64,000 nt of DNA, taken from assembly GCF_036924595.1 (NCBI RefSeq), contig NZ_JAZHRV010000001.1, forward strand, positions 3,844,001 to 3,908,000. The letters are read 5' to 3'. The stretch comes from Bradyrhizobium algeriense. GTDB lineage: Bacteria; Pseudomonadota; Alphaproteobacteria; Rhizobiales; Xanthobacteraceae. A model generated the notes under the pieces. It made no database searches. It was given only the letters and a program-made list of their open reading frames with translations, and was not told where the DNA came from. Shown piece after piece: positions 42,165 through 62,439 of this stretch; the first letter of the stretch is position 1; each line of letters begins with the position of its first letter. The translations under genes and the position numbers were made by a program.

Positions 42165-42190
42165 AGCATCGATGAGCGTTGCGGGTAACT

Positions 42191-42229
42191 GGAGACGGCC
42201 CCGGCCAGCTAACCGACCTGGCCGTCTCC
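42191..42229. terminator. Inverted repeat between convergent genes
   Basis: GGAGACGGCC and GGCCGTCTCC pair over a 19-base interval that itself holds a GGCCAG/CTGGCC alternative stem. It lies between convergent HlyD and DsrE genes and could act as a two-way terminator. Confidence 0.55.
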
Positions 42230-42304
42230 GCTCCCGCTAGCTTGCGCCCCTCTTCATCCCAAAGGGCGCGGGGGTCGCTATTCATCGCGAGCCCCCCGCC
42301 TCGC

Positions 42305-42925: not shown

Positions 42926-42960
42926 CGGGCTCTCCTATGTACAAACTTCATCGGACACCA

Positions 42961-43593: not shown

Positions 43594-44633
43594 TGCGATG
43601 CATGCGTTGCGCGCTGCTGGCGTTCGAGCCAGGCTTGCGCCGCCGGGAAGCGCACGAGGCCAGGAACCGTCGCCGCGAGATTGATCGATTTCCACTTCGG
43701 ATCGAAGCCAGGCTCCTGCAGCTTGCCGATCCGCGAGAACAGATGATCGACGAAACGCGCGATGCGCTGAAAGCGGTTCGATTTGGCGGGAAAATTGAAG
43801 GCAACAAGAGCGGTCGGAACGGCAATCGTGGTTACACGTTCGCCCGGCTTGATCAGATTGGGATAGTCCGTGGCATCCAGCGCGGCGGGCAGGTAATAGT
43901 CCTCGAACTTGCTGTCATAGGAAATCGGCAGGAACTTGAATCCTGGCTCCCAACGGCCACGCACGAAAGCATCGACCGGCTTCGAGGTAATGAAGACGAC
44001 AGCCGCCATCTCGCCCTTACGCATCTGCTCGAGCGCGACCTGATGCGGGATGAACGTCTTTTCCACCTCGAGGCCGAGCCGACTGAAGATCAATGGGCCC
44101 GAATAGGCCGCCGCGGTACCCTGGGTATTGAAGTTGACTTTCTTGCCGACGAGATCGTTCAGACCCTGAATCTCGGGACGAACGAAGATATGAAGTTCGG
44201 ACGGGAATAGATTCAGGATGTAGGCAAGCCGCTGCTGAATATCGGGCACCTGGCTCTTGTATTCCTCCAGGACGTCCGAATTGATGATCGCGGCATCGAT
44301 GCCGCGCAAATAGAGCAGTGAATTCACATTTTCCGTAGCGCCGCGCGTCACGACCGGCAGAACGTGCAGATTGTTTCCGTCATCGACGACACGGGCGATC
44401 TCCGCCGCCAGGCGGATTGGCGCTCCCTCGAGAAGGCCTCCTGCAACACCGACCGTCCAGGCGTTCATCGCCACTTGCGGCTTTTGCCGCGGAACCTCGC
44501 GAGGCAACGGGCGAACGCCTTGCATCCGGGCATTTTGAGTCTGGGCGTCCGCAGCGAACGGCTGAATAGTTGCGGCCAACGAGGCCAATGCCATGAGCAA
44601 AAGTCGCGGAGCTAAACCAAAGGACCAGTTCAT
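43590..44633 (-). CDS. TAXI-family TRAP transporter solute-binding protein
   Basis: Start at MNWSFGLAPRLLL, with GGAAGGGG upstream, gives 347 residues with a signal peptide. TAXI features are TVGVAGGLLEGAPIRLAAEI, DNGNNLHVLPV-like (DGNNLHVLPVVTRG) and VNSLLYLRGIDAAIINSDVL, followed by LVGKKVNFNTQGTAAAYSG. No TRAP membrane protein is adjacent. Binding of an anionic solute is expected from the family, and similar orphan proteins may act as sensors. Confidence 0.8.
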   Translation of the reverse strand: MNWSFGLAPRLLLMALASLAATIQPFAADAQTQNARMQGVRPLPREVPRQKPQVAMNAWTVGVAGGLLEGAPIRLAAEIARVVDDGNNLHVLPVVTRGATENVNSLLYLRGIDAAIINSDVLEEYKSQVPDIQQRLAYILNLFPSELHIFVRPEIQGLNDLVGKKVNFNTQGTAAAYSGPLIFSRLGLEVEKTFIPHQVALEQMRKGEMAAVVFITSKPVDAFVRGRWEPGFKFLPISYDSKFEDYYLPAALDATDYPNLIKPGERVTTIAVPTALVAFNFPAKSNRFQRIARFVDHLFSRIGKLQEPGFDPKWKSINLAATVPGLVRFPAAQAWLERQQRATHASQ

Positions 44634-44673
44634 CAGCCCCTTCCTTTCCAAGCTTTGAAGGCGCTGCCCTGTG

Positions 44674-44946
44674 CTACGGATGTAGCGCCGCCATCCGAGC
44701 CTTCGTCGCGCGTTGCTCATCCGCCGCCGCGTATCGCGCCTGATCCGGGAAAGCCTGCGGTTGGGACGCCCACGTCATCACGACGACAGCGGCAGCGGTC
44801 CACACGGGCGCCGCTCGTCCCTCCACTCGCAGGCGCATCATTGTGTTCTGGGCAAATAGCGTCCTGTCCGAATCGATGCGCGACGTGCCCGAGATCTCGT
44901 AGGCGACAGCTACGTCATCCTTGCCTAGGATTGACCTGTTTTTCAT
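44674..44946 (-). CDS. Small hypothetical protein upstream of the TAXI gene
   Basis: The 90-residue frame begins MKNRSILGKDDVAVAYEISG and has one hydrophobic segment (WTAAAVVVMTWASQ) and an alanine- and arginine-rich tail. It lies 40 bases before the TAXI gene on the same strand and may be its first operon partner. No clear ribosome binding site and no family is recognised. Confidence 0.35.
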   Translation of the reverse strand: MKNRSILGKDDVAVAYEISGTSRIDSDRTLFAQNTMMRLRVEGRAAPVWTAAAVVVMTWASQPQAFPDQARYAAADEQRATKARMAALHP

Positions 44947-44958
44947 TGGGCGACCCAT

Positions 44959-45329
44959 CTGCCATCAACCGCCGCACGGTGAGATGGCCTTTTCAATGCG
45001 TCATCACGCACCTTATGCACTTCGCTTGCCCGCTGCTGGGAAACTCTTAAGGGGTACATCCAAGGAAGCGGCTTCCAGCATCAGGCGACGCGATGGCCAA
45101 CCAGATCGAGAGCTTGACTTCAGTAACCACCGTAGGTCGGCTGGAAGCGCACAGTAAGACGTAGCCCCCTGCATGAGAAAATCCGGAACGTTTTCGATTG
45201 AACCTGTCGTTTCCTAATTCCCGTATTCTTTGCTGCGCGGGAGGCTGCACGAGTTTTCGATAACTGGCTTCCATTCAAAGGGGCACGAAATGCGGTGCAC
45301 CGCGAAGGCGCATGCCTGCCGTCGCGGCG
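44959..45329. other. Intergenic region, about 370 bases
   Basis: No gene is recognised. It contains a 12-bp palindrome (GCGGTGCACCGC at 45291-45302) close to the stop of the SDR gene. It should hold the promoter of the small hypothetical/TAXI group. Confidence 0.5.
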
Positions 45330-46058
45330 TCAGGCGGTGTTGCCGGCGTCCACGGTCAGAACAGTGCCGGTGATGTTCCGGCCGCCTTCTCCCAGGAGAT
45401 ATTCGACCATGGAAGCGACGTCATCGGCTTCGGGCAAGCGGCGCAACGCACTGCGGCCGGCGATGCGCCGGCGGCCGTCGTCGTCTAGGGACTTTGTCAA
45501 TTCGGTGTCGACGAAGCCGGGCGCGATCGCGTTCACGGTGATGTCGAGCTTGCCGACTTCGCGGGCCAGCGAACGGGTAAAGCCGCCGGCCGCGGCCTTG
45601 GACGCGGCGTAGACGGACAGGCCGTTGTAGCCGGTCGAGGCGATGATGGAGGAGATGTTGACGATGCGCCCGGCGCCGTCGGCCATCATATGGCGCACCA
45701 CGTATTTGGTCAGAACGATCGGCGACAGCACGTTCAGACGGATCAACGCCTCGATCTCGGAATTGCGCATATTGGCCAGCAGTCCTTCGGTGCCGATCCC
45801 GGCATTGTTGACAAGGCCGTAGATCGCGCCGAAGGCGTCGCGCAGTTCCTTCACGAAGGCGGGAATCTTGTCTGTTTGGCCGAGATCGAACGCCCTGAAG
45901 TGCAGGCGGTCCGCGCCCGCCTCGCGGATGGCCCGTTCCAGATCCTCGCTCTCGCGGCGCGCGGCCGCGATCACCTTGTAGTCGCCGGATGCGACGAGCC
46001 TGCGCGCAATCGCAAGCCCGATGCCGCGGCTGCCGCCGGTGACGAGAACGTTACGCAT
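45330..46058 (-). CDS. SDR-family 3-oxoacyl-ACP-reductase-like oxidoreductase
   Basis: The 242-residue protein has the classical SDR layout: VTGGSRGIGLAIARRL cofactor site, LVNNAGIG, IVNISSIIAST (catalytic Ser) and YAASKAAAGGF (Tyr-x3-Lys), with NITGTVLTVDAGNTA at the end. FabG-like enzymes reduce 3-ketoacyl groups on carrier proteins. It overlaps the AMP-ligase gene by eight bases, the last gene of the four- or five-gene minus-strand operon with two ACPs, so an ACP-bound substrate is likely. Confidence 0.88.
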   Translation of the reverse strand: MRNVLVTGGSRGIGLAIARRLVASGDYKVIAAARRESEDLERAIREAGADRLHFRAFDLGQTDKIPAFVKELRDAFGAIYGLVNNAGIGTEGLLANMRNSEIEALIRLNVLSPIVLTKYVVRHMMADGAGRIVNISSIIASTGYNGLSVYAASKAAAGGFTRSLAREVGKLDITVNAIAPGFVDTELTKSLDDDGRRRIAGRSALRRLPEADDVASMVEYLLGEGGRNITGTVLTVDAGNTA

Positions 46059-47433
46059 CGGCCCGCGCCAGTTTTCCCGCTGTGGTGACGTCGAGGCGTT
46101 CGACGAACCGGATCACCGCAGGCACCTTGTATGCCGCCAGCGAGTCCTTGCACCGGCCGAGAATCTCCGTGCGGATCGTTTCCTGGCGACCCGCATCAGC
46201 GCCGTCGGCGAGGACGATGTCGGCGACCACGATGGCGCCGGTGATCGGGCTCTTGCGCGACCGCGCGCGCGACATCCGCACCGACTCGTGTCCATTGATC
46301 ACGGCCTCGACCTCCTCGGGATGGACCTTCAGCCCGCCGATGTTGATGATGCCGCCGCGCCGTCCGACGAAGTGGTAACGATCGCCGCGCAGCTCGATCA
46401 TGTCGCCGGTGTCGACGAAGCCCTCGGCATCGGCGAGCGGTGGCGCGTCGGCGCCGATATAGGCGTGCGCCGCGCGATGGGAGCGGATCCGGAGCGATCC
46501 GTCGACGACCTTCATTTCGACGCCGTCGCGGTTCCGCCCGACAAAGTCGGCGGGAAAACCCTCGCGCCCATCGTCGACCGCGAAACCGACCCCGGCCTCG
46601 GTGGAAGCATAGGCATGGCCGATCGACGCATGCGGAAACGCACGGGCCAGGCCGTCGAGCACGGCCTGGTCGGCGATCTCGCCTGACAGACGGACATAGC
46701 GCGGCGAGAAGTTCGCTGCAGCACCGCTCATCAGGAGCTTGCGCCAGTGCGACGGCGTCCCGGAGATGTGCGTGACGCCGCCCGCGCGCAGCCGTGCCAC
46801 GTAATCCGCAATGGCTTCTCCGGGCTCCGACAGCACCATTGATCCGCCGCCGATCACGGCGCGCAGCAATATCTGCAGGCCGCCATAGCGGCGGATGTCG
46901 TAGAACGTCGCCCAGGCCGCATTCGGGTGGCGCGCAGCCCCTTCGGCGATGATTGCGCCGGCCAGTCCATCGAGCGTATGTCCGACGATCTTGGGCGGCC
47001 CTGATGTGCCCGAGGTCAGCATCAGCCATTCTGTCGCGCGCTCGGTCTTCCATGGCACCACCGCAGGATCGGGCAGACCGACGCCGACGACCAAATATTT
47101 GCCGGCATCGCATCGGTCCGGCCGGTCGGTGACGATGGCGTCGATCTCGGCATCCGCAAGCAGCGCCTGGATGTGATCCGGATCGAGGTCGGGCGGGCAC
47201 AGAAGCATGCGGCGGGCGACACCGTCGAGCTCGATCATGGCGAGCGCGGACTGCAGCTGCCCCGACGCCGCAAGCAGCACCGATCGGCCGGAGAGCTCGC
47301 GAGATCGGCCGATCAGACAGCTGTGCCCGCGAATGTCGGTCAGCGATACGCTGTGCCGGGCATCGGAAATCGTACGACCCTTCAGCTCCGGGCCGAGATA
47401 TTCGCGCAACGCGAAGGTCTCAGGCGGGGACAT
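46051..47433 (-). CDS. AMP-forming acyl/aryl ligase (ANL superfamily)
   Basis: The ATG at MSPPETFALREYLG overlaps the ACP gene by 14 bases. The 460-residue protein has the P-loop-like motif LMLTSGTSGPPKIVGHT, the adenine-site HAYASTEAGVGF, GFVDTGDMIELRG and the hinge and C-terminal lysine region GGLKVHPEEVEAVI and TAGKLARADA. The N-terminal domain is shorter than in typical acyl-CoA synthetases. The adjacent overlapping ACP is the probable acceptor. The acid it activates is unknown. Confidence 0.82.
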   Translation of the reverse strand: MSPPETFALREYLGPELKGRTISDARHSVSLTDIRGHSCLIGRSRELSGRSVLLAASGQLQSALAMIELDGVARRMLLCPPDLDPDHIQALLADAEIDAIVTDRPDRCDAGKYLVVGVGLPDPAVVPWKTERATEWLMLTSGTSGPPKIVGHTLDGLAGAIIAEGAARHPNAAWATFYDIRRYGGLQILLRAVIGGGSMVLSEPGEAIADYVARLRAGGVTHISGTPSHWRKLLMSGAAANFSPRYVRLSGEIADQAVLDGLARAFPHASIGHAYASTEAGVGFAVDDGREGFPADFVGRNRDGVEMKVVDGSLRIRSHRAAHAYIGADAPPLADAEGFVDTGDMIELRGDRYHFVGRRGGIINIGGLKVHPEEVEAVINGHESVRMSRARSRKSPITGAIVVADIVLADGADAGRQETIRTEILGRCKDSLAAYKVPAVIRFVERLDVTTAGKLARADA

Positions 47434-47665
47434 TCTCGTACACTCTGACGAATTCGCCGACAGTCGATGGGAAGGCGGCATCCTCGGCAATGGTGAACGG
47501 ATCGATCCCGAGATCGTCCTCCAGCCGCGCGACCAGGATAGCGAACGCCAGCGAATCGAAGCCGGTGTCGTGAAGTGATAGATCGTCCTGCAGCGGCGGG
47601 AGCGTGACCTTCTGTTCTTCGGCGATCTGCTGCATCGCCGAGAAAATCCTTGACCTCACTGACAT
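47420..47665 (-). CDS. Acyl carrier protein
   Basis: The ATG at MSVRSRIFSAMQQ follows a GAGGTGAGGTG region and gives 81 residues. The phosphopantetheine serine is in DTGFDSLAFAILVARLEDDLG (around residue 38), and EFVRVYENVPA ends the fourth helix. The short size, acidic character and overlap with the AMP ligase point to a dedicated partner. Confidence 0.85.
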   Translation of the reverse strand: MSVRSRIFSAMQQIAEEQKVTLPPLQDDLSLHDTGFDSLAFAILVARLEDDLGIDPFTIAEDAAFPSTVGEFVRVYENVPA

Positions 47666-47707
47666 GGAACACCTCACCTCTCAAGAAAAACGGCTTGCGA
47701 GCCGACG

Positions 47708-49528
47708 TTAAAACCTGACTGCGCCCTCCACGATGCGCGCGTAGACGGCGCGGTTGATCGGACAATAGTCGCCGGTCGCCGGATCACGCAGGAACAGCGG
47801 ATCGGCCACGACCGAGGGATCAAATCCCTCGCGGATCAGCCGCTGCTTGTTCTGTTTGAAGGACTCGGTGGCGTCGAGCGCGCGGCAGAACCTGACGAAG
47901 ACCGGGTGCGAATAGACCGGAAGCCGGCGCGCCAGGTGTTCCGCGAATATCCTGAAATCGAACTCTTGGTCTACTACCAAAGCCACCATGCCGGCGCGGC
48001 CATCGGCACCGGGAATAGCGACCCCGTAGGTCGAGGCATCGAGAACGCCGGGGCAGCAGTCCCTGATCGCGTCGTTCACCTCGCTGGTCGCGACGTTCTC
48101 GCCCTTCCAGCGGAACGTGTCGCCGACCCGGTCGACAAAATGGAAGTAGCCCTGTTCGTCGCACAGCATGAGATCGCCCGTGCGGAACCAGGCATCGCCT
48201 TCGGCAAAGACGTCGCGCAGCACCTTCTTCTCGGTCTCGGCCGGATCGGTGTAGCCCTCGAAGGGGCCGCCGCCCCGATCTGCTGTGCCGATGCGCCCGA
48301 CCGCCTCACCGATCTCGCCGTGGGCGCAGGCGATGCAAAGCCCATCCTCGCCGCGGACCGGGCTGCCGCTGTCGGCATCGAGCTTCACGATCGAGGCGGG
48401 AAAGCGATGCGCCAGCAGCGGCGGGATTCGGCCAATCGCGCCGGGTTTTCCCTCGACGTTGAACAGCGAAAAATTGCCGTCCGTCGCGGCGTAGAATTCG
48501 AGGATATGAGGAATCGCAAACTGCCCGGCAAATGCCTCCCAAATGTCGCCGCGCAACCCGTTGCCGACTGCCAGCCGCAGCCTGTGTCTTGCTCTTGGCC
48601 CGGACGGCGGCGCCTTCAGCAAGTAGCGGCAGAGCTCGCCGATATATTGGAAGACGGTGCAGTCGAAACGCGCGATGTCGTCCCAGAAGTTCGTTGCGGA
48701 GAATTTCTCCGCGATCACCACCGAACCGCCCGCGCGAAGCATGCTGCAGGGCGCGGCGACACCACCCACGGAATGGTGGAGCGGCAGGCAATCGTAGAGA
48801 CGGTCGTCCACGGAAGCGTCAGTGAGCCCGGCAAACCACCCTCCCCAGCTGAGAATGCGGCGATGACTGACGTTCGCCGCCTTCGGCAGCCCCGTGGTGC
48901 CCGAGGTGAAGATGAGAAGCGCGCGTCCATCGATCGTGACGTGGCCGCGTTCGGCGGAGGACAGCGGGCGGGTGTCCGCGGCCGCGAGCGCCGCATCCAG
49001 ATCGGCGCCTGCGCCGCCGACACCGAGACCCCAGGTTGGCGGCACACGATCCAGATGCGGACATGCGGTCTCGAACGCATCCCCGCACTCGGCGGCAAGG
49101 ATGATATGATCGGCGCGTGCGAGATCGATGCAGTGGGCGAGCGACGGTCCGACCAGCCTGGTGTTGATCAGCGCCACCGTGCCGCCGACCCTGCTGATAC
49201 CGAGCCAGCAGGCGAGATAGTCCGGCCGGTTCGGCATCAGAAGGCAAACGGTGCGGCCGGTACGGATGCCGAGGCTCAGTGCCCAGCGCGCATATCGGTT
49301 GGCCCGCGCGGCGAGTTCCCCGTAGGTGAAGGATTGGCCATCCGAGAGCAAAGCGGGGCGCCCGGGTTGCCGCTGCGCCCAGTCTTCCACGACGTCAGCG
49401 AACAGTCGATGCGGCTCGGCCTCGATCTGCGAGATCAATTCGATGGCCTTCAGCCAGGTTTTGGCGACGGAGGGCCTGCGCCGCGGAGCGCCACTTCCAG
49501 TCGCCCGCTGGATCACCCCTGCTTCCAT
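47708..49528 (-). CDS. FATP/FadD-type long-chain acyl-CoA synthetase
   Basis: The 606-residue protein has GYTYGELAARANRYARW-like opening (FTYGELAARANRYARWA), the AMP motif LLIFTSGTTGLPKAANVSHRR, FYAATDGNFSLFNVEGKPG, DAWFRTGDLMLCDEQGYFHFVDRVGDTFRWKGENV and a C-terminal FKQNKQRLIREGFDPSVV. These are marks of the very-long-chain/FATP subgroup. It lies 42 bases upstream of the ACP gene and 58 bases after the next ACP. It may load a fatty or branched acid into the pathway. Confidence 0.85.
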   Translation of the reverse strand: MEAGVIQRATGSGAPRRRPSVAKTWLKAIELISQIEAEPHRLFADVVEDWAQRQPGRPALLSDGQSFTYGELAARANRYARWALSLGIRTGRTVCLLMPNRPDYLACWLGISRVGGTVALINTRLVGPSLAHCIDLARADHIILAAECGDAFETACPHLDRVPPTWGLGVGGAGADLDAALAAADTRPLSSAERGHVTIDGRALLIFTSGTTGLPKAANVSHRRILSWGGWFAGLTDASVDDRLYDCLPLHHSVGGVAAPCSMLRAGGSVVIAEKFSATNFWDDIARFDCTVFQYIGELCRYLLKAPPSGPRARHRLRLAVGNGLRGDIWEAFAGQFAIPHILEFYAATDGNFSLFNVEGKPGAIGRIPPLLAHRFPASIVKLDADSGSPVRGEDGLCIACAHGEIGEAVGRIGTADRGGGPFEGYTDPAETEKKVLRDVFAEGDAWFRTGDLMLCDEQGYFHFVDRVGDTFRWKGENVATSEVNDAIRDCCPGVLDASTYGVAIPGADGRAGMVALVVDQEFDFRIFAEHLARRLPVYSHPVFVRFCRALDATESFKQNKQRLIREGFDPSVVADPLFLRDPATGDYCPINRAVYARIVEGAVRF

Positions 49529-49586
49529 GACCTGACCATGCAGATGAGTTTGATCGATGTCGGCGCGGACAGCCTCCCGAAGCGCT

Positions 49587-49856
49587 TCATCCCGCTCCGG
49601 GTCCGAGCTGGTTGAGTATCAGCCGCTCCAGCGTCTTCACCGATTGGAAATTCTCGGGCGTAATCTCGGGTTGAGGAAGGGTGAGATCGAACTCGGCTTC
49701 GACCTTGAGCATTAGGGCGACCATATCCATCGAGTCCAGTCCGATATCTACCAACCGCGACTCCGGGTGGACATCCGCGGTGATCGCGTTCTGCTCAAGG
49801 ACGCTCCTGACGACGAAAAGAACACGGTCTTGAACGCTGGCGCTTAAGTATTGCAT
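49587..49856 (-). CDS. Acyl carrier protein, second copy
   Basis: Starting at MQYLSASVQDRVLF with GGGGTTGAA before it, the product has 89 residues. The attachment serine is in DIGLDSMDMVALMLKVEAEF (around residue 40), and ITPENFQSVKTLERLILNQL ends the fold. It is the first gene of the minus operon, divergent from the acyl-CoA dehydrogenase and amino acid:carrier-protein ligase genes, so it is the best candidate acceptor for that ligase. Confidence 0.85.
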   Translation of the reverse strand: MQYLSASVQDRVLFVVRSVLEQNAITADVHPESRLVDIGLDSMDMVALMLKVEAEFDLTLPQPEITPENFQSVKTLERLILNQLGPGAG

Positions 49857-50012
49857 TTCAACCCCATACATCGCGTGAAATGGCACGATCGTCGTCGATG
49901 CGAAGATAGCTGACTGCAACCCAGGTCAATAGCTCTACTTCGGAGGTACCTCGCTCGGAAGCGCATTGCTCATCGATATCCACCTTTGCGCCGCCGACTC
50001 CGCAGCCACGGT

Positions 50013-50121
50013 CGGTTAGATTGCCGCCCTCGGTTAGATTGCCGCCCTCGAATTCGCGCGGAAATCATCTCAACGCGGTGCGGGTCGTCCAACCATCAGG
50101 GGCGGGTCGTCCGACCATTAG
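50013..50121. repeat. Two pairs of tandem repeats in a divergent promoter region
   Basis: cggttagattgccgccct is repeated twice head to tail (50013-50048). A 20-base unit beginning gcgggtcgtcc is repeated at 50080 and 50102 with two or three differences. Both pairs lie between the divergent ACP and acyl-CoA dehydrogenase starts and could be operators. Confidence 0.55.
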
Positions 50122-50138
50122 ATGGGAGGCTTTGGGCC

Positions 50139-51365
50139 ATGAACGTGCAGGAAGTCCAGTTCCGCAACTTCGCCCCGGAAACCAGCCGAGTACAATTCAG
50201 TTCCGACCGCGCCTCGTTCCAGCAGCGGACGGCTGTCGTCGCAGAGGCGGCGGCGACGGAGGTCGAAGCGGTGGACCGTGAGGCGCGCTTCCCGCGGAAG
50301 GCCATCGACGCGGCGCGCAAGCAGAGGCTTCTGGGCACCCAGATCCCGATCGAATTCGGCGGAGACGGCGCATCGATGTCTGACGTAACCGACATGTGTT
50401 ACGCGCTCGGCCGCGCCTGTGCGTCGGCCGGGATGATCTTCGCGATGCATCAGACCAAGGTCGCGTGTCTTGTCCGCCACGGTGGGGGCAGCGCTTGGCA
50501 CGAAAAACTGATGCGCCGCGTGGCGACCGAACAGCTGCTGCTGGCGTCGTCGACCACGGAAGGCCAGAACGGCGGGAACATCCGCTTCAGCTCGGCGGCC
50601 GTGGAGCGCGCCGGTACCGAGATCTCGCTGCTGCGCGACGCGACGGTCATTTCCTACGGCGCCGAGGCAGACGGCATCGTCACCATCGCCCGCCGTGCAG
50701 ACGAGGCCGCCGGATCCGACCAAGTGATGCTCGCCATCACCCGGGACGACTATTCGCTGGAGCCCACTCTCGCATGGGAAACACTCGGCATGCGAGGAAC
50801 TTGCAGCGCCGGCTTCAAGCTGAACTTCAAGGGCACCGCGGAACAGATATTCCCCGTGCCTTACGACAGGATCCATGCGCAAACGATGACGCCGGTCGCC
50901 CACCTGTGCTGGTCGTCGGTCTGGGCGGGAATTGCGGCCGCCGCGGTGGATCGCGCGCAGCTATTCATCCGCAAGGCCGCCCGTGGATCGGGCGGCAACA
51001 TGCCTCCCGGCGCGTCACATTTTACCGCCGCCAAGATGACGCTGACGAAACTGCGCGCCATCATCACCGCGAATCTCGAGTCCTATGCGGCCCGCGAACA
51101 GGACGAGCGCGCGCTGTCGTCCATCGACTTTCAGTCCTCGATCAACCTTCTCAAGGTGGAGGCCTCCGAGCTCGCCGTCGCGGCCGTGCTGCATGCGATG
51201 CGCGCCTGCGGCCTGTCCGGCTACCGCAACGACACCGACGTCAGCATTGGCCGCCACCTCCGCGACGTGCTTTCAGCTCCAATCATGATCAACAACGACC
51301 GCATCCTCGCCAGCATGGGTAGCGCCACGCTGATGAGCGCCGTCCCGGTGTCGCTGCGCGATTGA
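50139..51365 (+). CDS. Acyl-CoA dehydrogenase-family flavoprotein
   Basis: ATG with GGGAGG nine bases upstream gives 408 residues. Family features: GTQIPIEFGGDGASMSDVTD, LLASSTTEGQNGGNIRF (flavin-binding TE/SS), WETLGMRGTCSAGFKLNF and a C-terminal ILASMGSATLMSAVPVSL where the usual catalytic Glu region is replaced. The gene sits before the amino acid:carrier-protein ligase and opposite an ACP. Homologues in other pathways oxidise aminoacyl groups bound to carrier proteins (for example prolyl to pyrrolyl), and that is the proposed role here. Confidence 0.85.
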   Translation: MNVQEVQFRNFAPETSRVQFSSDRASFQQRTAVVAEAAATEVEAVDREARFPRKAIDAARKQRLLGTQIPIEFGGDGASMSDVTDMCYALGRACASAGMIFAMHQTKVACLVRHGGGSAWHEKLMRRVATEQLLLASSTTEGQNGGNIRFSSAAVERAGTEISLLRDATVISYGAEADGIVTIARRADEAAGSDQVMLAITRDDYSLEPTLAWETLGMRGTCSAGFKLNFKGTAEQIFPVPYDRIHAQTMTPVAHLCWSSVWAGIAAAAVDRAQLFIRKAARGSGGNMPPGASHFTAAKMTLTKLRAIITANLESYAAREQDERALSSIDFQSSINLLKVEASELAVAAVLHAMRACGLSGYRNDTDVSIGRHLRDVLSAPIMINNDRILASMGSATLMSAVPVSLRD

Positions 51366-51393
51366 TTTTCTCCTCGAAGGAATGGGGCTCGAT

Positions 51394-52338
51394 ATGAACG
51401 TGGCCATGTTTGCCGCCGCACCGGTTGAACCCGCCGATCCGCTGGACCATCTCGCCGATGTGCTGTTCCACCGGATGGGCTCTCCGGGGATCTATGCCCG
51501 CACCGCACTCTATGAAGACATCGTGGAGCGGCTTGCGGCGCTGATCACGCGGTATCGCGAACCAGACGCCGAGGTGATGCGCTTCCCTCCCGTCATGAAC
51601 CGCGGGCAGCTCGAGCGGTCGGGCTATCTGAAGAGCTTCCCGAACCTGCTGGGTTGCGTCTGCGGCCTGCACGGCACGGAAAGCGAAATCGACGTAGCGG
51701 TCGGCCGCTTCGATGCCGGGGGAGACTGGACTGCCGCGCTGTCGCCGGCCGACCTCGTGCTGTCGCCGGCCGCCTGCTATCCCGTCTACCCGATCGCGGC
51801 AAGCCGCGGTCCGGTGCCGGCGGATGGCTGGCTTTTCGACGTGGCCGCCGATTGCTTCCGTCGCGAGCCCTCGCGCCATCTCGACCGGCTGCAGTCCTTC
51901 AGGATGCGCGAATATGTCTGCATCGGCAGCCCCGACCACGTTTCGCAGTTCCGGGAGCGTTGGATGATGCTTGCACAGGAGATCGCCAGCGATCTCGGGC
52001 TGACCTTCAGGATCGACTACGCCAGCGATCCGTTTTTCGGCCGTGTCGGACGGATGAAGGCGGTGAGCCAGCAGCAGCAGGCGCTGAAGTTCGAGCTGCT
52101 GGTGCCTCTGCGCTCCGAGGAGCAACCGACCGCCTGCATGAGCTTCAATTACCACCGCGATCATTTCGGCATCGCCTGGGACATCGCGGATGCCTCCGGG
52201 GAGCCGGCCCATACCGCCTGCGTGGCCTTCGGAATGGACCGCCTCGCCGTCGCCATGTTCCACACACACGGCAGCAACGTCGCCAGATGGCCTACCGCGG
52301 TGCGGGACCTGCTCGGCTTCCCGCCGAACGATCGCTAG
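51394..52338 (+). CDS. Amino acid:carrier-protein ligase (SerRS-like catalytic core)
   Basis: The 314-residue protein lacks the tRNA-binding arm of seryl-tRNA synthetase but keeps class II motifs: SFRMREYVCIGSPD (motif 2) and the motif-3 region TACVAFGMDRLAVAMFHTHG. A Cys-Glu-Cys set at residues 128 (AACYPVYP), 173 (RMREY) and 276 (HTACVAF) matches the zinc ligands of the amino acid:carrier-protein ligases known from Bradyrhizobium and Agrobacterium, as does SFNYHRDHFG. Such enzymes activate a small amino acid (Gly or Ala in known cases) and load it on a carrier protein. ATG at 51382 is an alternative start. The amino acid used here is not known. Confidence 0.88.
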   Translation: MNVAMFAAAPVEPADPLDHLADVLFHRMGSPGIYARTALYEDIVERLAALITRYREPDAEVMRFPPVMNRGQLERSGYLKSFPNLLGCVCGLHGTESEIDVAVGRFDAGGDWTAALSPADLVLSPAACYPVYPIAASRGPVPADGWLFDVAADCFRREPSRHLDRLQSFRMREYVCIGSPDHVSQFRERWMMLAQEIASDLGLTFRIDYASDPFFGRVGRMKAVSQQQQALKFELLVPLRSEEQPTACMSFNYHRDHFGIAWDIADASGEPAHTACVAFGMDRLAVAMFHTHGSNVARWPTAVRDLLGFPPNDR

Positions 52339-52422
52339 ACGATTTTCGGCATTCGAGGAAATGCAATGCTCCAACGAAATCCCGAGATAGCCCACGACCG
52401 AAGAGCCAGAGGGCCAACCTCC

Positions 52423-53697
52423 ATGAAAAGAGAGACCCTCGCCGTCCACGGTGGCTTCGACAACGATCCGACCACCAAGGCCGTCGCCGTGCCGATCTAC
52501 CAGACGGCCTCGTACGCCTTTGACAGCGCCGACCATGGCGCCGCGCTCTTCAACCTCGAAGTGGATGGCTTCCGCTACACCCGGATCGGCAATCCGACCA
52601 ACGCAGTGCTGGAGAAGCGCGTTGCCGCAATGGAAGGAGGCGTCGAGGCGCTCAGCGTGGCGTGTGGCCAGGCCGCGGTGAACTATGCGGTGACCAACAT
52701 CGCGGAGATGGGCACCAACATCGTCTCGGTCCCGCAACTCTACGGCACCACACATACGCTGTTCGCGCACATTCTGCCGCGGCAGGGCATCACGGTCCGA
52801 TTCTCGGAAGACGACTGTCCGGCGAGCATCGAAAGATTGATCGACGACGAGACGCGGGCGGTGTTCTGCGAGAGCGTCGGAAATCCGGCCGGAAACGTCT
52901 GCGACATCGAAGCGATGGCGGAAGTCGCCCACAGGCACGGCGTGCCGCTGATCGTCGACAACACGGTGGCTACCCCGATCCTGCTAAGACCGATCGAATA
53001 CGGCGCGGACGTCGTGGTGGAGTCCCTGACGAAGTTCATGGGTGGGCACGGCACCACGCTCGGCGGAATCATCGTCGACGGCGGCAAATTCCCGTGGGCG
53101 GAGCATGGCCGGCGCTTTGCGATGATGAACGAGCCGGAGAAATCGTACCACGGGCTGGTCTTCACCGAACGCTACGGGGCGGCCGCCTACATCGCGCGCT
53201 GCCGCGCGGTCTCCTTGAGGAACACCGGCTCCATCCTGGCGCCGCTCAACGCCTTCCTGTTGCTCCAGGGCATCGAGACCGTCGCGTTGCGGATCGAGCG
53301 CCACGTCGAGAATGCCGAGAAGGTCGCGCGCTTTCTGCGCAACGATCGCCGCGTCGGATGGGTGAACTACGCGGGCTTCCAGGACAGCCCCTATCACGCA
53401 CTGACGCAGAAGTATCTGAGCGGCCGGGCGTGTTCGTTGCTGACCTTTGGCGTGGCCGGAGGGTTCGAGGCCGGCAAGCGGTTCTACGATGCGCTCAAAC
53501 TATTCAAGCGGCTGGTCAACATTGGCGACGCAAAATCGCTCGCTTGCCATCCCGCATCAACCACGCACCGGCAAATGTCGCAGGAAGAGCAGAAAAAGGC
53601 CGGCGTGCGGCCCGAGATGATCAGGCTGAGCGTCGGAATCGAGCACGTCGACGACATCATCGCCGACCTCGATCAGGCGCTCCATGCCGCGGATTGA
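52423..53697 (+). CDS. O-acetylhomoserine sulfhydrylase / methionine gamma-lyase-like PLP enzyme
   Basis: Start at MKRETLAVHGGFDNDP, AGAGGG upstream, giving 424 residues. Cys/Met-metabolism family features: VPIYQTASYAFDSADHG, YTRIGNPTNAVLEKRVAAME, SVPQLYGTTHTLFAHI, IVDNTVATPILLRP and VESLTKFMGGHGTTLGG with the PLP lysine. MetY enzymes replace the acyl group of O-acyl-homoserine by sulfide or other nucleophiles. Its position between an amino acid ligase and a MetA-like gene suggests making a gamma-substituted amino acid rather than ordinary methionine synthesis. Confidence 0.88.
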   Translation: MKRETLAVHGGFDNDPTTKAVAVPIYQTASYAFDSADHGAALFNLEVDGFRYTRIGNPTNAVLEKRVAAMEGGVEALSVACGQAAVNYAVTNIAEMGTNIVSVPQLYGTTHTLFAHILPRQGITVRFSEDDCPASIERLIDDETRAVFCESVGNPAGNVCDIEAMAEVAHRHGVPLIVDNTVATPILLRPIEYGADVVVESLTKFMGGHGTTLGGIIVDGGKFPWAEHGRRFAMMNEPEKSYHGLVFTERYGAAAYIARCRAVSLRNTGSILAPLNAFLLLQGIETVALRIERHVENAEKVARFLRNDRRVGWVNYAGFQDSPYHALTQKYLSGRACSLLTFGVAGGFEAGKRFYDALKLFKRLVNIGDAKSLACHPASTTHRQMSQEEQKKAGVRPEMIRLSVGIEHVDDIIADLDQALHAAD

Positions 53698-53723
53698 ACC
53701 CACACAGCCATGAAGGCATTCCG

Positions 53724-54818
53724 ATGCCTGTCCTAGTCGACATAGACGCCTACGACCACCACCTCTTCTCGAGAGCACCGAGCGGAAGCGCCGCCGCAAA
53801 GGCGTCACTGGAAAACCGGGCGGAGTGTCTCGATATCGGGCTGATCAATAACATGCCGGACGCCGCCTTGATGTCCACCGAGCGCCAGCTGTTTGACCTG
53901 CTCGGCGCAGCGGCCGGAAGGCTCCTCGTCAGGCTGCACTTCTACACGATGGAGAGCACGCCCCGTTCGGAATGGGGGCGCGATTACGTGCGTCGATACT
54001 ACCGCAGCACCGACGATCTGGTGATCGGCAGCCTGGACGGAATAATCGTGACCGGCGCCGAACCGAGAGCTGCCCGCCTGACGGAAGAGCCATATTGGAC
54101 CACCCTCGCCCAGGTCATGGACTGGGCCAGGGAGAATACGATCTCGTCGGTGTATTCCTGTCTCGCCGTCCATGCGGCCGTACTGCACATGGACGGCGTG
54201 GAACGCCACAAGCTGCCTGCCAAATGCATCGGCGTCTTCGCTCAAACGAAGACGAGAGATCATCCCTTGATGCACGACATTCCCGCGATCTTCAGAATTC
54301 CGCACGCCCGGTGGAACGAGGTGCAGGAGGAAGCTATCGCGAGCTGCGGATATTCCGTTCTCACAAAGTCGGCGGAGGCTGGCGTCGATTGCTTCGTCAA
54401 GCAGCAGAAGAAGAGCCTTTTCGTCCATTTCCAGGGCCATCCGGAATACGAGACCCAGAGCCTATTGGGCGAATACAGAAGGGACATGGGCCGGTTCCTC
54501 CGGGGAGAGAACGAAGTCTGTCCGACGATACCGAAAGGCTATTTTGGCACGAAGGCGGAAGAGATCCTGACCACCTTCCGGCGAAAAGCCCTTGCGGACA
54601 GACGTCCAGAGTTTTTCGCCGATTTCCCGGCCGATCACTTGGCAAAAAATCTGAGAAACGCCTGGCATCTGCCGGCCAGGCGCATTTACCGCAACTGGCT
54701 GCTGTACATGGCGTCGCAGCGAGCCGCACGCTCAAGGCCGCTGGCGCTCAACGGAAGGAGCCGAACGAAGCCGGTCCAGGACCGCGGCGGATACCGCGCA
54801 TTCGGGCACCATGGGTAA
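53724..54818 (+). CDS. MetA-family homoserine O-acyltransferase
   Basis: The 364-residue protein matches the homoserine transsuccinylase family: GLINNMPDAALMSTERQLFDLL, VTGAEPRAARLTEEPYWTTL, SVYSCLAVHAAVLHMDG with the catalytic-type Cys, and VHFQGHPEYETQSLLGEYRRDM. It makes O-succinyl- or O-acetylhomoserine, which the PLP enzyme directly upstream can use. The C-terminus is about 40 residues longer than in E. coli MetA. It follows the PLP gene by 26 bases. Confidence 0.85.
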   Translation: MPVLVDIDAYDHHLFSRAPSGSAAAKASLENRAECLDIGLINNMPDAALMSTERQLFDLLGAAAGRLLVRLHFYTMESTPRSEWGRDYVRRYYRSTDDLVIGSLDGIIVTGAEPRAARLTEEPYWTTLAQVMDWARENTISSVYSCLAVHAAVLHMDGVERHKLPAKCIGVFAQTKTRDHPLMHDIPAIFRIPHARWNEVQEEAIASCGYSVLTKSAEAGVDCFVKQQKKSLFVHFQGHPEYETQSLLGEYRRDMGRFLRGENEVCPTIPKGYFGTKAEEILTTFRRKALADRRPEFFADFPADHLAKNLRNAWHLPARRIYRNWLLYMASQRAARSRPLALNGRSRTKPVQDRGGYRAFGHHG

Positions 54819-54978
54819 CGGTAGGAGGCGCAAGAAGGGAGTTCGCTCCGTAACCGGAATTCCGGCTCGTCGCCACAGACGCAAGCTGGGCGCCGCCCGT
54901 CCGGAGATTCCCGCGCCGGACGACGGCCGCGATCCGCTCGCCGACCTGCTGACGAAGAAGCGGGAGCGGATCGTATGA
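54811..54978 (+). CDS. Small basic protein overlapping the MetA-like gene
   Basis: A 55-codon frame starts inside the last eight bases of the MetA-like gene and reads MGNGRRRKKGVRSVTGIPA, then DGRDPLADLLTKKRERIV. It is strongly basic at the start and acidic-amphipathic at the end. It fills the gap to the GNAT-like gene. No family is recognised; it may be a small operon protein or a chance frame. Confidence 0.3.
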   Translation: MGNGRRRKKGVRSVTGIPARRHRRKLGAARPEIPAPDDGRDPLADLLTKKRERIV

Positions 54979-54991
54979 CGGAGTTCGGACC

Positions 54992-55852
54992 ATGATCCGA
55001 TGCCGCGAGATAGTAAGAGCCGATCTCGCCGCCGTCACCGATCTCTTGACGCGCGGCTTTGAGGGCCGCTCGCGCGACTACTGGATGGAGGGGCTCCGGC
55101 GCACGTCCGTGCGCGAGGTGCCCGAAGGATTCCCGCGCTTTGGCTACATGCTCGACCATGAGGGGACGCCCGTTGGTGTTCTGCTATTGATCTACACCGC
55201 ACGGGAAGACGGCGGCGAGACCTGCATCCGCTGCAATGTTTCCAGCTGGTATGTGGAACCCGCCTTTCGCAACTACGCGTCGATGCTGACCAAGGTCGCG
55301 CAACGCCACGAGCATGTCACTTACATCAACATCAGCCCGGCACACTGGACCTGGCCGACCATCGAGGCCCAGGGATTCCGCGCGTATTGCGGCGGCTTGT
55401 TCTTTTCCTTTCCCGCGCTGTCGCGTTCGGCGAAGGGCATGCGCGTCGAGGTCGTGCAACAGGACGCGCAGGCGATCGGCGGCTTGTCCAAAGCCGACGT
55501 CGCGCTGCTTGCACGGCACGCGGCCTACGGCTGCCTCAGCCTGGCCTGCCGCGCGGCCGATGGCCGCGGCTTTCCCTTCGTCCTGCAGCCGATGCGTAAG
55601 CGCCGGATCGCGCTGCCGGCGATGCAGCTGATCTATTGCCACGATGTGGCCGACTATGTCGCCTGCGCCGGCGCTATCGGCCGCTTCCTGCTCCGGCGCG
55701 GCCGGATCTCGGTCGCTCTCGACGCCAATGGCGGCATGAAGGACCTGGTCGGCGTTTATCGCGAGCGGCGCGGCCGGAAATACTTCAAGGGTCCGCAGTG
55801 CCCCCGGCTTGCCGATCTGTCGGATACCGAACTGGTGATCTATGGACCGTAA
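54992..55852 (+). CDS. GNAT-like acyltransferase family protein
   Basis: The 286-residue protein starts like GNAT N-terminal helices (MIRCREIVRADLAAVTDLLT) and has VGVLLLIYTAREDGG, RCNVSSWYVEPAFRNYASML and HEHVTYINISPAHWTWP, corresponding to the central strands and acceptor-binding loop. The second half (LLARHAAYGCLSLACRAADG) resembles the same domain repeated. The relic at 18.7-19.65 kb carries the same type of domain fused to a carrier protein, suggesting transfer of a carrier-bound acyl or aminoacyl group. The acceptor is unknown. Confidence 0.65.
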   Translation: MIRCREIVRADLAAVTDLLTRGFEGRSRDYWMEGLRRTSVREVPEGFPRFGYMLDHEGTPVGVLLLIYTAREDGGETCIRCNVSSWYVEPAFRNYASMLTKVAQRHEHVTYINISPAHWTWPTIEAQGFRAYCGGLFFSFPALSRSAKGMRVEVVQQDAQAIGGLSKADVALLARHAAYGCLSLACRAADGRGFPFVLQPMRKRRIALPAMQLIYCHDVADYVACAGAIGRFLLRRGRISVALDANGGMKDLVGVYRERRGRKYFKGPQCPRLADLSDTELVIYGP

Positions 55853-55875
55853 CTCAGTCGCCTAGGAGGACCGTC

Positions 55876-56763
55876 ATGATTCCGAGCAGCAAGTCCGTCA
55901 GCCATTCGCGGACATGGACGTTCTTCAAAGGCCAGTGGCACGAGGGCAATGTGCCGATCATGGGGCCACGCACCCATGGGCTCTGGCTCGGCTCGACCGT
56001 GTTCGATGGTGCACGCGCTTTCGAAGGCGTTACGCCTGACCTGGACCGCCATTGCGCGCGCGTCAATCAATCCGCGGTCTACTTCGGACTCAAGCCCATC
56101 GTCGATCTCGATACCTGGCTGGGTCTGGCGCACGAAGGCATCGCCCGCTTCTCAGCCGGTGCCGAGCTCTACATCCGACCGATGTATTGGCCGCAGAACG
56201 GCGTCGGGGGCGGAGTGCTGTTCGATCCGGAAACGACCGACTGGTGCCTGTGCATCTACGAAGCGCCGATCCCGAAGCCTGTCGGCAGCGCGATCACGCT
56301 GTCGCCGTTCCGCAGACCCACGGCCGAATGCGCGCCGGTCGGCGCCAAGGCCTCCTGTCTCTATCCGAACTGTTCGCGTGCGCTGATCGAGGCCGCCTCT
56401 CGCGGCTTCCAGAACTGCCTGATGCTGGACATGCTCGGCAACGTCGCGGAGTTCGGCAATTCCAACGTGTTCATGGCGAAAGATGGGGCTGTCTACACGC
56501 CTGCTCCGAATGGCAGCTTCCTGAACGGCATCACCCGGCAGCGGGTGATCGAATTATTGCGTGGCGAAGGCGTCACCGTGATAGAGGCCACGCTTCGCTA
56601 TGTCGATTTCCTCGCCGCTGACGAGATCTTTTCGACCGGCAATTTCGCCAAGGTAGCGCCGGTCATCCGTATCGACGACCGGCAGCTCACGCCCGGCCCC
56701 CTCTATGCACGTGCGCGGAAGCTGTATTGGGATTTCGCGCACACGGCAAAGCTTGCGGCGTGA
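55876..56763 (+). CDS. Class IV PLP aminotransferase (branched-chain-aminotransferase-like)
   Basis: AGGAGG upstream of the ATG; 295 residues. Features: HGLWLGSTVFDGARAFEGV, YIRPMYWPQNG, the PLP lysine in VGAKASCLYPNCSRALIEA, and NVAEFGNSNVFMAKDG with FLNGITRQRVIELL. BCAT/D-amino-acid-transaminase fold proteins of this kind act on branched or unusual keto acids. It ends the plus-strand biosynthetic group and may supply or remove the amino group of the product. Confidence 0.87.
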   Translation: MIPSSKSVSHSRTWTFFKGQWHEGNVPIMGPRTHGLWLGSTVFDGARAFEGVTPDLDRHCARVNQSAVYFGLKPIVDLDTWLGLAHEGIARFSAGAELYIRPMYWPQNGVGGGVLFDPETTDWCLCIYEAPIPKPVGSAITLSPFRRPTAECAPVGAKASCLYPNCSRALIEAASRGFQNCLMLDMLGNVAEFGNSNVFMAKDGAVYTPAPNGSFLNGITRQRVIELLRGEGVTVIEATLRYVDFLAADEIFSTGNFAKVAPVIRIDDRQLTPGPLYARARKLYWDFAHTAKLAA

Positions 56764-56796
56764 GATGGAGCGGTTCGCAAATTGAGATGGTGTGGC

Positions 56797-58443
56797 ATGG
56801 CTTCTCGGGTTGCCGATCTAATCGTTGATTCTCTGATCGCGCACGGCGTCGACCGGGCATTTGGCGTACCCGGCGAAAGCTTTCTTGCGCTCCTTGACGC
56901 ATTGTACGAACGCTACGAGATCGATCTCGTGACTTGCCGCCACGAGGGAAGCGCCAGTCTTGCCGCAGTCGCCGACGCCAAGCTCACCGGCCGCCCGGGT
57001 GTGGTGATGGCGAGCCGCGGACCGGGCGCATCCAACGCGGCGCTTGGTCTCCATGTAGCTTCGCAGGAGGCCATACCCCTCATACTGCTGGTTGGTCAGG
57101 TCGACACGCCGAATTTGAAACGCGACGCAGTGCAGGAGATCGACACCGGGCGGGCCTTCAGTGGCCTTATTAAATGGTCCACCAGAATCGATTCAGCGGC
57201 CCAGGCACCCGAGATGGTGGCGCGCGCATTTTCCGTGGCACTTAGCGGCACGCCAGGGCCGGTTGTGATCGAGCTCCCTCAAGATGTTCTCGAGATGGAC
57301 GCCGGCCTGCTCACCGCCAGGGTTCACGGCGTCGCGCGAGCCGAGCCCAGTCAAGCCGCCGTCGAGCAGGCCGCCGCCTTGCTTGGAAAGGCGGAGAGGC
57401 CGATTCTGCTGGTCGGAGGAGAGTGTCGGACGGCGGAATTTCGCAAGGATCTGATCGCACTGAGCGAGCGCTGGAATATTCCGGTGGCAGTCACCACCAA
57501 GATGCAAGATCAATTCCCGAACGATCACCGGCTCTGGATTGGGCACCTTGGCTTCTTCACCTCGCCAGCTCATGTTCGACTCTTTGAGCGAGCGGATCTG
57601 ATCGTTGCGATCGGAACCCGGCTCGGCGACTTGTCTTCTCTCGGATTTCGATTTCCGCGACAATCGCCGACGTCTCAGCCTCTGGTTCACGTCTACCCCG
57701 ATCCGAATACCATCGGGACTCGCTTCCATACGAATGTTGCGATCGTCTCGTCGGCGCACCCCTTCTTGAGATCCTGGCTCGACCTGCCGGTCGCCGTACG
57801 CGAGCGCGATGGGTGGATCGAAGCCGCGGCGAAAGCTCGGGAAGCAGTGCACGCATGGCCCGAGCAGCGTATCCCCAGCGCTGATGTCCTTGGCCATGCG
57901 GTTGCGGCCTTCGCCAAGCATTTCAAAGCAGATGGTATCGTGACGACCGACTCCGGCGACTTCGCCGCCTGGGTACACCGGATATTCCGCTTCAAGCCGT
58001 CAGCTCGACTGCTCGGCTCCGCCTGCGGCGCGATGGGCAGTGGTGTTCCTTCTGCATTGAGCGCGAGCCTTCGTTATCCGGATCGTCAGGTGATCGCGTT
58101 TTGCGGCGACGGCGGCTTCCTGATGACCGGGAACGAGTTGGCAACCGCCGTTGCCCGCCGGCTTAATATAACGATCGTGATCTCCAATAACCAATCGTAC
58201 GGCACCATCCGTTCACATCAGGAAAGAGCATTTCCGAACCGCCCTTGGGGTACGGATCTATCCAATCCCGATTTTGCGGCTCTTGCCCGCGCCTTCGGCG
58301 CGCAGGGCTATACGATCACGAACGCAGCCCAGGTGGCCGAAATCGTCGCGGAAGCAATGTCGGCCAACGGCCCCGTCGTGATCGAAGTTCGATCTGACGT
58401 ACGCCAAACCATCAATCGCTCCCTCGCTGCGGCGGCTGGCTGA
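56797..58443 (+). CDS. Thiamine diphosphate-dependent enzyme, acetolactate-synthase-like
   Basis: Start at MASRVADLIVDSLIAHG gives 548 residues. The catalytic glutamate lies in VTCRHEGSASLAAVADA, and the ThDP site is FCGDGGFLMTGNELATAV with NNQSYGTIRSHQER. PGPVVIELPQDVLEMD marks the central domain. Homologues include acetolactate synthase and benzoylformate-decarboxylase-like enzymes; the RHEGSAS region and missing regulatory subunit gene argue against normal valine synthesis. It follows the aminotransferase by 33 bases, so the pair may share a keto-acid substrate. Confidence 0.83.
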   Translation: MASRVADLIVDSLIAHGVDRAFGVPGESFLALLDALYERYEIDLVTCRHEGSASLAAVADAKLTGRPGVVMASRGPGASNAALGLHVASQEAIPLILLVGQVDTPNLKRDAVQEIDTGRAFSGLIKWSTRIDSAAQAPEMVARAFSVALSGTPGPVVIELPQDVLEMDAGLLTARVHGVARAEPSQAAVEQAAALLGKAERPILLVGGECRTAEFRKDLIALSERWNIPVAVTTKMQDQFPNDHRLWIGHLGFFTSPAHVRLFERADLIVAIGTRLGDLSSLGFRFPRQSPTSQPLVHVYPDPNTIGTRFHTNVAIVSSAHPFLRSWLDLPVAVRERDGWIEAAAKAREAVHAWPEQRIPSADVLGHAVAAFAKHFKADGIVTTDSGDFAAWVHRIFRFKPSARLLGSACGAMGSGVPSALSASLRYPDRQVIAFCGDGGFLMTGNELATAVARRLNITIVISNNQSYGTIRSHQERAFPNRPWGTDLSNPDFAALARAFGAQGYTITNAAQVAEIVAEAMSANGPVVIEVRSDVRQTINRSLAAAAG

Positions 58444-58796
58444 TGCCTCAGGGTGATCTGATGGTCTGCATTTTCAAGAGTGAAGCAACGAAGATGACGG
58501 CGCGACCAGATCTATAAGGCGCCTGCGCGGCACCGCATCCCCGGCGCCAATCGGCAGGGATCAGAGGGTAGCTCGCATTGTAGCTTCATCTCAAGTTTGG
58601 ACACGGCCTGAGGTGCCTCTTTGGAGGTAACCCCCGTTTAGCAACCCGTTGGGCGCACCGCAGAGCTACTTGCGGCAAAGTGGCCCCTTCAGTTTTTTTG
58701 GGATAATATGCGGCTCCCGGAAGAATGACAGCCGCTACTAGCGCCGCCGGGATGCTTTGAAGCCGTGCATGCTTATTCAAACCGTCGAGGTCATCG
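58444..58796. other. Intergenic region, about 350 bases
   Basis: No gene is recognised; it probably holds the promoter of the cupin gene. GAGGT lies six bases before that gene's ATG. Confidence 0.5.
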
Positions 58797-59330: not shown

Positions 59331-59378
59331 ACTGATGTCTCTAATTCCTTGCCGTCCGATTTGGGAGTCATTGACTGA

Positions 59379-59972: not shown

Positions 59973-60158
59973 CAACGATCTTCAATGATCCCATTTTGAC
60001 TTCTGGGTGTACACACGGTCCCAGGCTTCCCGCGAGCCGGATCCGACATCTTGCCCAAACGCCCCGTTGGCGTCGGGGACAGCCCACCTTGGTGCGAACA
60101 AGCCTGTTGCATCATTTCATTGACGGATCAGTGAATGATCCGGCGATGCGGCTGCCTC

Positions 60159-62360: not shown

Positions 62361-62439
62361 TATCACGAACCCTTCTTATGATTGCAGCCGCTCGCTTCCA
62401 TGCCGGCTTCGGTGCCCTGCAGGCATATCCGCTGCGCGA

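Follow-up and report, generated by a model that had tools for sequence, protein, structure and literature searches.

A divergent carrier-protein gene set built around a SerRS-derived amino acid ligase is co-inherited across Bradyrhizobium and may encode a single pathway

The window analyzed here is a stretch of 64,000 nt from Bradyrhizobium algeriense (assembly GCF_036924595.1, contig NZ_JAZHRV010000001.1, positions 3,844,001-3,908,000 of the forward strand). It contains two divergent operons that comprise two stand-alone carrier proteins, an amino acid:[carrier protein] ligase (AACPL) derived from a seryl-tRNA synthetase (SerRS), and a series of acyl- and amino acid-handling enzymes. All the genes named in the initial annotation are present, with the families as named and with matching coordinates and strands, as judged from Pfam and NCBIfam profile searches and, for the GNAT-like protein, from a structure model. 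The features are the following:

45330..46058, minus strand: SDR, FabG-like short-chain dehydrogenase/reductase, last gene of the minus-strand operon (PF00106, 185 bits)
46051..47433 (5' end approximate), minus strand: AMPL, AMP-forming ligase of 460 residues (PF00501 and PF13193)
47420..47665, minus strand: ACP1, stand-alone carrier protein with its phosphopantetheine site in GFDSLAFAI (PF00550)
47708..49528, minus strand: FATP-type acyl-coenzyme A (CoA) or acyl-ACP ligase (PF00501; PRK08279, 740 bits for a cut-off of 625)
49587..49856, minus strand: ACP2, aminoacyl carrier protein with the site GLDSMDM (PF00550)
49857..50138, no strand: spacer between the divergent operons, containing two direct-repeat pairs (repeat search)
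50139..51365, plus strand: ACAD, acyl-CoA-dehydrogenase homologue (PF02771 and PF00441 above cut-off)
51382..52338, plus strand: AACPL, SerRS-derived amino acid:[carrier protein] ligase of 318 residues (NF005479, 467 bits for a cut-off of 357)
52366..53697, plus strand: METY, O-acylhomoserine sulfhydrylase-like pyridoxal phosphate (PLP) enzyme (PF01053, 426 bits; TIGR01326, 616 bits for a cut-off of 495)
53724..54818, plus strand: META, divergent member of the homoserine O-acyltransferase (HTS) family (PF04204, 277 bits)
54992..55852, plus strand: GNAT, modelled as a tandem-GNAT acyltransferase (AlphaFold2 model and structure matches)
55876..56763, plus strand: AT4, class IV aminotransferase (PF01063; PRK13356, 474 bits for a cut-off of 262)
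56782..58443, plus strand: thiamine pyrophosphate (TPP)-dependent enzyme, accessory and outside the core set (PF02775, PF02776 and PF00205)

The close packing noted initially is borne out, neighbouring genes being separated by 16-58 bases or overlapping by 8, the exceptions being the spacer from META to GNAT (173 bases) and that of the divergent starts (282 bases). The overlap of AMPL and ACP1 amounts to 8 or 14 bases depending on the start chosen, the AMPL start (ATG at 47433) being a by-eye reading of the translation. The ACAD start is an ATG at 50139 with GGGAGG upstream, the first TTG being at 49986, and META is nested in a longer open frame (52662-54818). A chance arrangement is unlikely because the gene order is repeated in other genomes. 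The TPP-dependent enzyme, absent from the initial annotation, lies 18 bases beyond AT4 and has a match in 9 of the 21 loci of the same joined type, hereafter superclusters. No condensation, ketosynthase or multidomain module is found among the cluster proteins scanned, in agreement with the earlier placement of the pathway outside nonribosomal peptide synthetases (NRPS) and polyketide synthases (PKS); carrier-protein chemistry of this kind is already known. The direct repeats upstream of ACAD, between the operons, are tandem (50005-50040 and 50077-50120, with units of 18 and 22 bases), their second copies being 83% (18-base pair) and 86% (22-base pair) like the first ones, and are possible regulator sites.

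Five genes of the set were used as markers in one draw of 146 Bradyrhizobium genomes, with thresholds varying by query and fragments being counted. The ligase is found in 96 genomes, MetA in 99, AMPL in 97 (E 1e-60), GNAT in 97 (E 1e-20) and AT4 in 94 (E 1e-80). Ligase, GNAT and MetA occur together in 95 genomes, of which 94 have AMPL (not G023) and 94 have AT4 (not G116); all five are present in 93, and none of the five in 45. The initial annotation had proposed a single pathway, and the co-occurrence check set beforehand sustains it: the five markers mark nearly the same genomes of the 146. The marker genes are thus inherited as a set across the genus, almost always together or not at all. 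ACP1, ACP2, FATP, SDR, ACAD and MetY were counted within the fetched loci, where local linkage ties these six genes to the five markers. In all, about eleven genes make up the set, which some two thirds of the Bradyrhizobium genomes sampled possess. On a HtpG tree of 80 genomes, the presence of any form of the set requires at least 11 changes by parsimony, the wide set described below 6, and the supercluster 9. Among 200 shuffles of the any-set labels, the mean is 25.9 changes and the lowest value 20, above the observed 11; therefore, presence partly follows kinship. The tree samples 46 of the 49 genomes without the set (G010 being labelled as set-lacking), 10 with the supercluster only, 4 of the 12 with both forms and 20 of the 75 of the wide type; it leaves out G090 and G100, which have no HtpG match at E 1e-150, and G091, with a partial match.

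In wide-type genomes, the genes are distributed over separate loci: ACP2 divergent from ACAD-AACPL-GNAT; METY-META, with AT4 ~10 kb away (beside the ligase in some genomes); and FATP-ACP1-AMPL-SDR. Distances were taken in 29 chromosome-level assemblies (1-3 contigs) with the wide-type set only, supercluster and both-form assemblies being left out and some lengths rounded. In all 29, more than 430 kb separate the ligase from AMPL, so that the presence of one does not carry the other by position. The ligase and MetA are more than 100 kb apart in 24 of the 29, and MetA and AT4 are within 15 kb in all 29. The window is thus a supercluster joining parts that are usually scattered. Two other loci, L127 (B. 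jicamae PAC68) and L092, are superclusters without the ligase and with several genes in pieces.

Outside the genus, the ligase has a match in 52 of 249 genomes of the order (48 above cut-off) and in 44 of 398 genomes of the phylum (28 above cut-off), both draws including some Bradyrhizobium members. Twenty outside-genus loci were hand-picked from these matches. ACAD adjoins the ligase in 19 of them, and a GH2-like family is present in 16, DUF1839 in 11 and an alpha/beta hydrolase in 7, the family names being taken from one representative (L065 for GH2-like and DUF1839). Two loci from one other family of the order contain larger parts of the set: L118 combines, without interruption by distance, ACP2, ACAD and AACPL with a hydrolase and with ACP1, AMPL and SDR, and L119 has ACAD, AACPL, METY and META together. 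The L118 hydrolase is 50% identical to one that lies close to either AT4 or METY in 8 loci of the wide type. In L153 and L192, a GNAT paralogue (54-58% identity) is inserted between FATP and ACP1, and another one (53%) adjoins AMPL in G109. These joinings are the best support for one pathway besides co-inheritance.

The AACPL protein shares 78% identity with the crystallized Bll0957. It consists of a SerRS catalytic core devoid of the tRNA-binding N-terminal part, its residues 124-312 aligning with positions 310-506 of the 518-position serine--tRNA ligase model. Residues C132, E177 and C280 are near-invariant among 75 aligned sequences; by the positions in Bll0957, we take this Cys, Glu, Cys triad to be the zinc ligands. 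A cognate-type carrier is encoded close by: the best solved-structure match of ACP2 is 4h2s_C, aminoacyl carrier protein 1 (8.4e-32), and ACP2 is present in 11 of 11 wide-type ligase loci, suggesting that it is the partner carrier of AACPL. The specificity of Bll0957 is presumably for glycine and, by analogy, AACPL would put a small amino acid, likely glycine, on ACP2. Bll0957 itself belongs to the same gene set, since its identity reaches 93-95% with the ligases of seven wide-type loci and 84-87% with those of four more. The ligase family is described as loading carrier proteins with Gly or Ala (PMC5370406), and such ligases are tabulated with Ala, Gly and Ser (PMC9437257). At low oxygen, a phaR mutant is reported to have higher transcript and protein levels of bll0957 and bll0958, neighbours in one locus as judged by their tag numbers, and the table concerned also contains metZ and the aminotransferase bll7459 (PMC10888616). 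No product or pathway for a Bll0957-type ligase was found in the open-licence literature searched.

Among 80 AMPL loci, the named loci kept out of 247 AMPL relatives from a scan, ACP1 has a match in all 80, FATP in 79 and SDR in 78; 22 of them also contain the ligase and 58 do not. Hence a presumed role for AMPL in loading ACP1, whose DSL motif is retained among the alignment rows listed. For SDR, the best NCBIfam models are of the FabG type, with none above cut-off among the best 25 of 232.

ACAD belongs to the acyl-CoA dehydrogenase superfamily by its PF02771 and PF00441 domains, and lacks the catalytic Glu of the alpha,beta-desaturases. No Glu occurs in columns 431-440 or 302-309 of the 51 aligned sequences, these catalytic columns having been picked from alignments with solved relatives, with reference positions partly presumed. 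The tail reads MI[N/S/H/A]ND at the Glu position of the dehydrogenases, and the column of the other known Glu contains Ala (33 sequences), Ser (17) or Cys (1). A His (306) and a Trp (309) beside this second position are invariant in all 51 sequences. The solved relatives comprise true dehydrogenases, DszC and nitrososynthases, and PF08028 is also reported on 16 of the 120 close homologues listed (hand count). Because the catalytic Glu is absent, the relatives include DszC and nitrososynthases, and some homologues carry PF08028, oxygenation is as open as desaturation. The earlier idea that the aminoacyl-S-ACP is oxidized thus stays plausible, but plain desaturation is not assured for an enzyme devoid of Glu at either aligned catalytic position.

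META retains what we take to be the catalytic residues of its family (Cys, His and Glu): the Cys is conserved in 59 of 59 aligned sequences and the GHPEY motif in the alignment rows listed, except for L080 and L081. The acyl-selecting position is divergent. The aligned residue is Glu in structures 2h2w and 2ghr and Gly in 7cbe, presumably the T. maritima, B. cereus and E. coli enzymes, and we assume that this Glu/Gly position selects acetyl versus succinyl. In the 59 META sequences, it is R (38), K (7), V (4), I (4), N (3), A (1), L (1) or E (1), hence neither Glu nor Gly in 58; the sole E belongs to L081, from a genome without the ligase. This L081 (genome G077) is a canonical-looking MetA, and the MetX-family match of its genome is in two pieces. 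A MetX-family match is found in 144 of the 146 genomes, whether the gene set is present or absent, all matches being below the model cut-off of 500 bits and those of G077 and G100 far weaker than the other 142; MetZ is above cut-off in the window's own genome. MetA and MetY are therefore additional to housekeeping methionine synthesis, a role considered for the pair and disfavoured on these grounds. Around the set, sulfate-activation genes and a glutathione S-transferase (GST) adjoin the set genes in L119, and ACP2 is flanked by mtnP and mtnA homologues in 8 of the 11 wide-type ligase loci (L066, L067, L068, L072, L073, L074, L079 and L083), which we take, from Pfam family, to be methylthioadenosine (MTA) phosphorylase and methylthioribose-1-phosphate isomerase. 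These neighbours are hints of an involvement of sulfur.

The GNAT-like protein returns no Pfam match even at E 0.1, the LuxI-type autoinducer synthase family included. Its AlphaFold2 model (pLDDT 93.2, pTM 0.87) adopts a GNAT fold with a tandem-domain architecture and matches tandem GNAT proteins; an earlier model, built on a narrow alignment, had low confidence (pLDDT 55.8) and was discarded. GNAT is a candidate for the joining and release enzyme. As the initial annotation proposed, the aminoacyl-S-ACP might be condensed with an acyl-ACP and set free by GNAT, perhaps as a lipopeptide-like signal. A distant copy (39-40%) lies beside a by-eye cytochrome P450-like gene on the META side of the cluster in L126 (1-3546) and L139 (236-2639), which raises the question of a P450 variant of the pathway.

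Taken as a whole, the two divergent operons are best explained as one biosynthetic pathway on stand-alone carrier proteins, a reading that we consider probable, with ample room for doubt. As we infer the order of reactions and the product, AACPL would charge ACP2 with a small amino acid, Gly if it behaves like Bll0957, and the flavoprotein ACAD would oxidize or oxygenate the aminoacyl thioester. MetA would activate a homoserine-like hydroxy amino acid, and MetY would swap its acyl group for a nucleophile, probably sulfur. AMPL and FATP would provide an acyl group on ACP1 (or CoA), to be reduced by SDR, and the tandem GNAT would transfer an (amino)acyl group from an ACP to the amine of the compound formed by MetA and MetY, while AT4 may make the amino acid portion or trim it. 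Such a route, free of NRPS and PKS, would end in a small amino acid that is acylated or aminoacylated and likely contains sulfur. More boldly, this might be an undescribed pathway class, in which an aminoacyl-tRNA synthetase-derived ligase loads Gly (or Ala) on a carrier, a Glu-less flavoprotein oxygenates or oxidizes it, and a tandem GNAT links it to a sulfur amino acid from MetA/MetY and to an acyl group carried by ACP1, yielding new small sulfur metabolites of most Bradyrhizobium; we regard this extension as conceivable and rather doubtful. Through the genome comparison, the orphan Bll0957-type ligase, whose structures have been solved, becomes a step within a delimited set of genes and gains a testable role in a pathway undescribed so far as the open-licence literature was searched.

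Several observations weigh against the one-pathway proposal. For the enzymes of the window, substrates, products and chemistry are predictions from sequence, and the published accounts of the ligase substrates disagree (Gly or Ala in PMC5370406; Ala, Gly and Ser in PMC9437257). Besides the absences of AMPL in G023 and of AT4 in G116, the set is broken in several genomes: G010 has a DUF1839-form ligase (L065) without the other four markers, ligase and AT4 are missing from G001 and G048, where MetA, GNAT and AMPL still have matches, G091 has an AMPL fragment alone, and G031 and G077 have weak MetA matches alone, which were omitted from the strong-MetA Fisher table. The genus counts take in fragments (e.g., GNAT in G001, G023 and G125; AMPL in G030 and G091), and some of the genomes without the set are incomplete metagenome-assembled genomes. 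The association of the markers is extreme by Fisher tests, which ignore kinship, and the tree is that of one gene, with one very long branch, parsimony being blind to gain versus loss. Supercluster copies are often damaged, a GNAT match of any length being found in 19 of the 21 loci and AT4 in 16, with missing or short pieces in L085, L086, L091, L092, L093, L096, L099, L101, L102 and L103. As for sulfur, the scan for sulfate genes covered the neighbours of L119 only and gives no rate, the mtnP and mtnA genes beside ACP2 may reflect old synteny, and no correspondence was established between AT4 and the bll7459 entry of the phaR table.

Other explanations account for parts of these data. The ligase module (ACP2, ACAD and AACPL) might decorate a glycan or surface polymer with an (oxidized) aminoacyl group, as may be the case for the common form with DUF1839 and a GH2-like protein, the Bradyrhizobium set being a variant with GNAT as the transferase. 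The GH2-like and DUF1839 genes of the outside-genus loci point in this direction, as do the Wzc-like genes recognized by eye in 4 of these 20 loci and the polysaccharide genes upstream in the window. PMC10318531 presents DUF1839 as papain-like by prediction, with glycans as possible substrates, and places BtrH_N, which belongs to an ACP:aminoglycoside acyltransferase, in the same superfamily. However, the DUF1839 and GH2-like families are absent from the three set loci compared (L069, L073 and L089), and the genes co-inherited with the module encode amino acid- and acyl-handling enzymes rather than glycosyltransferases, which makes this explanation unlikely. If we assume instead that FATP gives long chains and that the tandem GNAT is an N-acyltransferase, the set could make an acylated amino acid membrane lipid or an N-acyl amino acid; we give this little credence, as it leaves AACPL, ACAD, MetA and MetY unexplained, which go with the set.

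The MetA/MetY pair and its neighbours could also be a methionine or sulfur supply module merely accompanying a separate carrier-protein pathway, which would suit the mtnP/mtnA homologues and sulfate genes near some loci and the metZ entry of the phaR table (PMC10888616). The occurrence of MetX-family matches regardless of the set and the altered acyl-selecting position of the MetA lineage argue against it, and its chances appear slim. That two unrelated pathways are neighbours by accident in the window is very improbable: the operons are indeed far apart in the wide-type assemblies compared, but their presence is near-identical over the 146 genomes and L118 provides a second joined locus.

The surroundings of the cluster are as follows. 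Upstream, polysaccharide deacetylase, glycosyltransferase, polysaccharide lyase, C39 peptidase/ABC transporter and HlyD genes occupy positions 32162-42164, and an NMT1-like protein (PF16868) is encoded at 43590-44720 and adjoins the cluster in several supercluster loci. Downstream, adjoining genes for a LysR regulator, a CN_hydrolase (nitrilase family) and a haem-containing dehydratase (PF13816, presumably the aldoxime dehydratase family) at 60159-63549 look like an aldoxime-nitrile pathway. Rfam reports no match at gathering scores in 42000-60000. A role in phage defence was also considered and dropped, the four proteins tried having no PADLOC match.

Among known systems, the closest is Bll0957 with its carrier (PDB 3MEY and 4H2S), which shares the ligase family (78%) and the same kind of divergent carrier protein. 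In the parts of the printed record available, Bll0957 appears as ligase and carrier alone, whereas the window holds a supercluster with MetY, MetA, GNAT, AT4 and a second ACP operon. The rhizobitoxine pathway of Bradyrhizobium likewise has a MetY-like PLP enzyme acting on an activated homoserine. There, RtxA includes a fused aminotransferase and RtxC is a desaturase; neither an RtxA-type fusion nor an RtxC-type desaturase is among the window genes scanned, the Rtx set being told apart by description only. The cispentacin proteins AmcB and AmcH are likewise a stand-alone ACP and an AMP-ligase, and their models return weak matches with ACP2 and AMPL, far under the cut-offs (33.9 of 80 bits and 49.3 of 370 bits, respectively). 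The butirosin side-chain pathway (BtrI carrier, BtrH) resembles the proposed one in that an amino acid on a stand-alone ACP is moved to an acceptor. There, the amino acid is borne by BtrI, and the ligase class differs from that of AACPL. BtrH is an ACP:aminoglycoside acyltransferase according to PMC10318531. This butirosin transferase is papain-like, and the window has a tandem GNAT instead.

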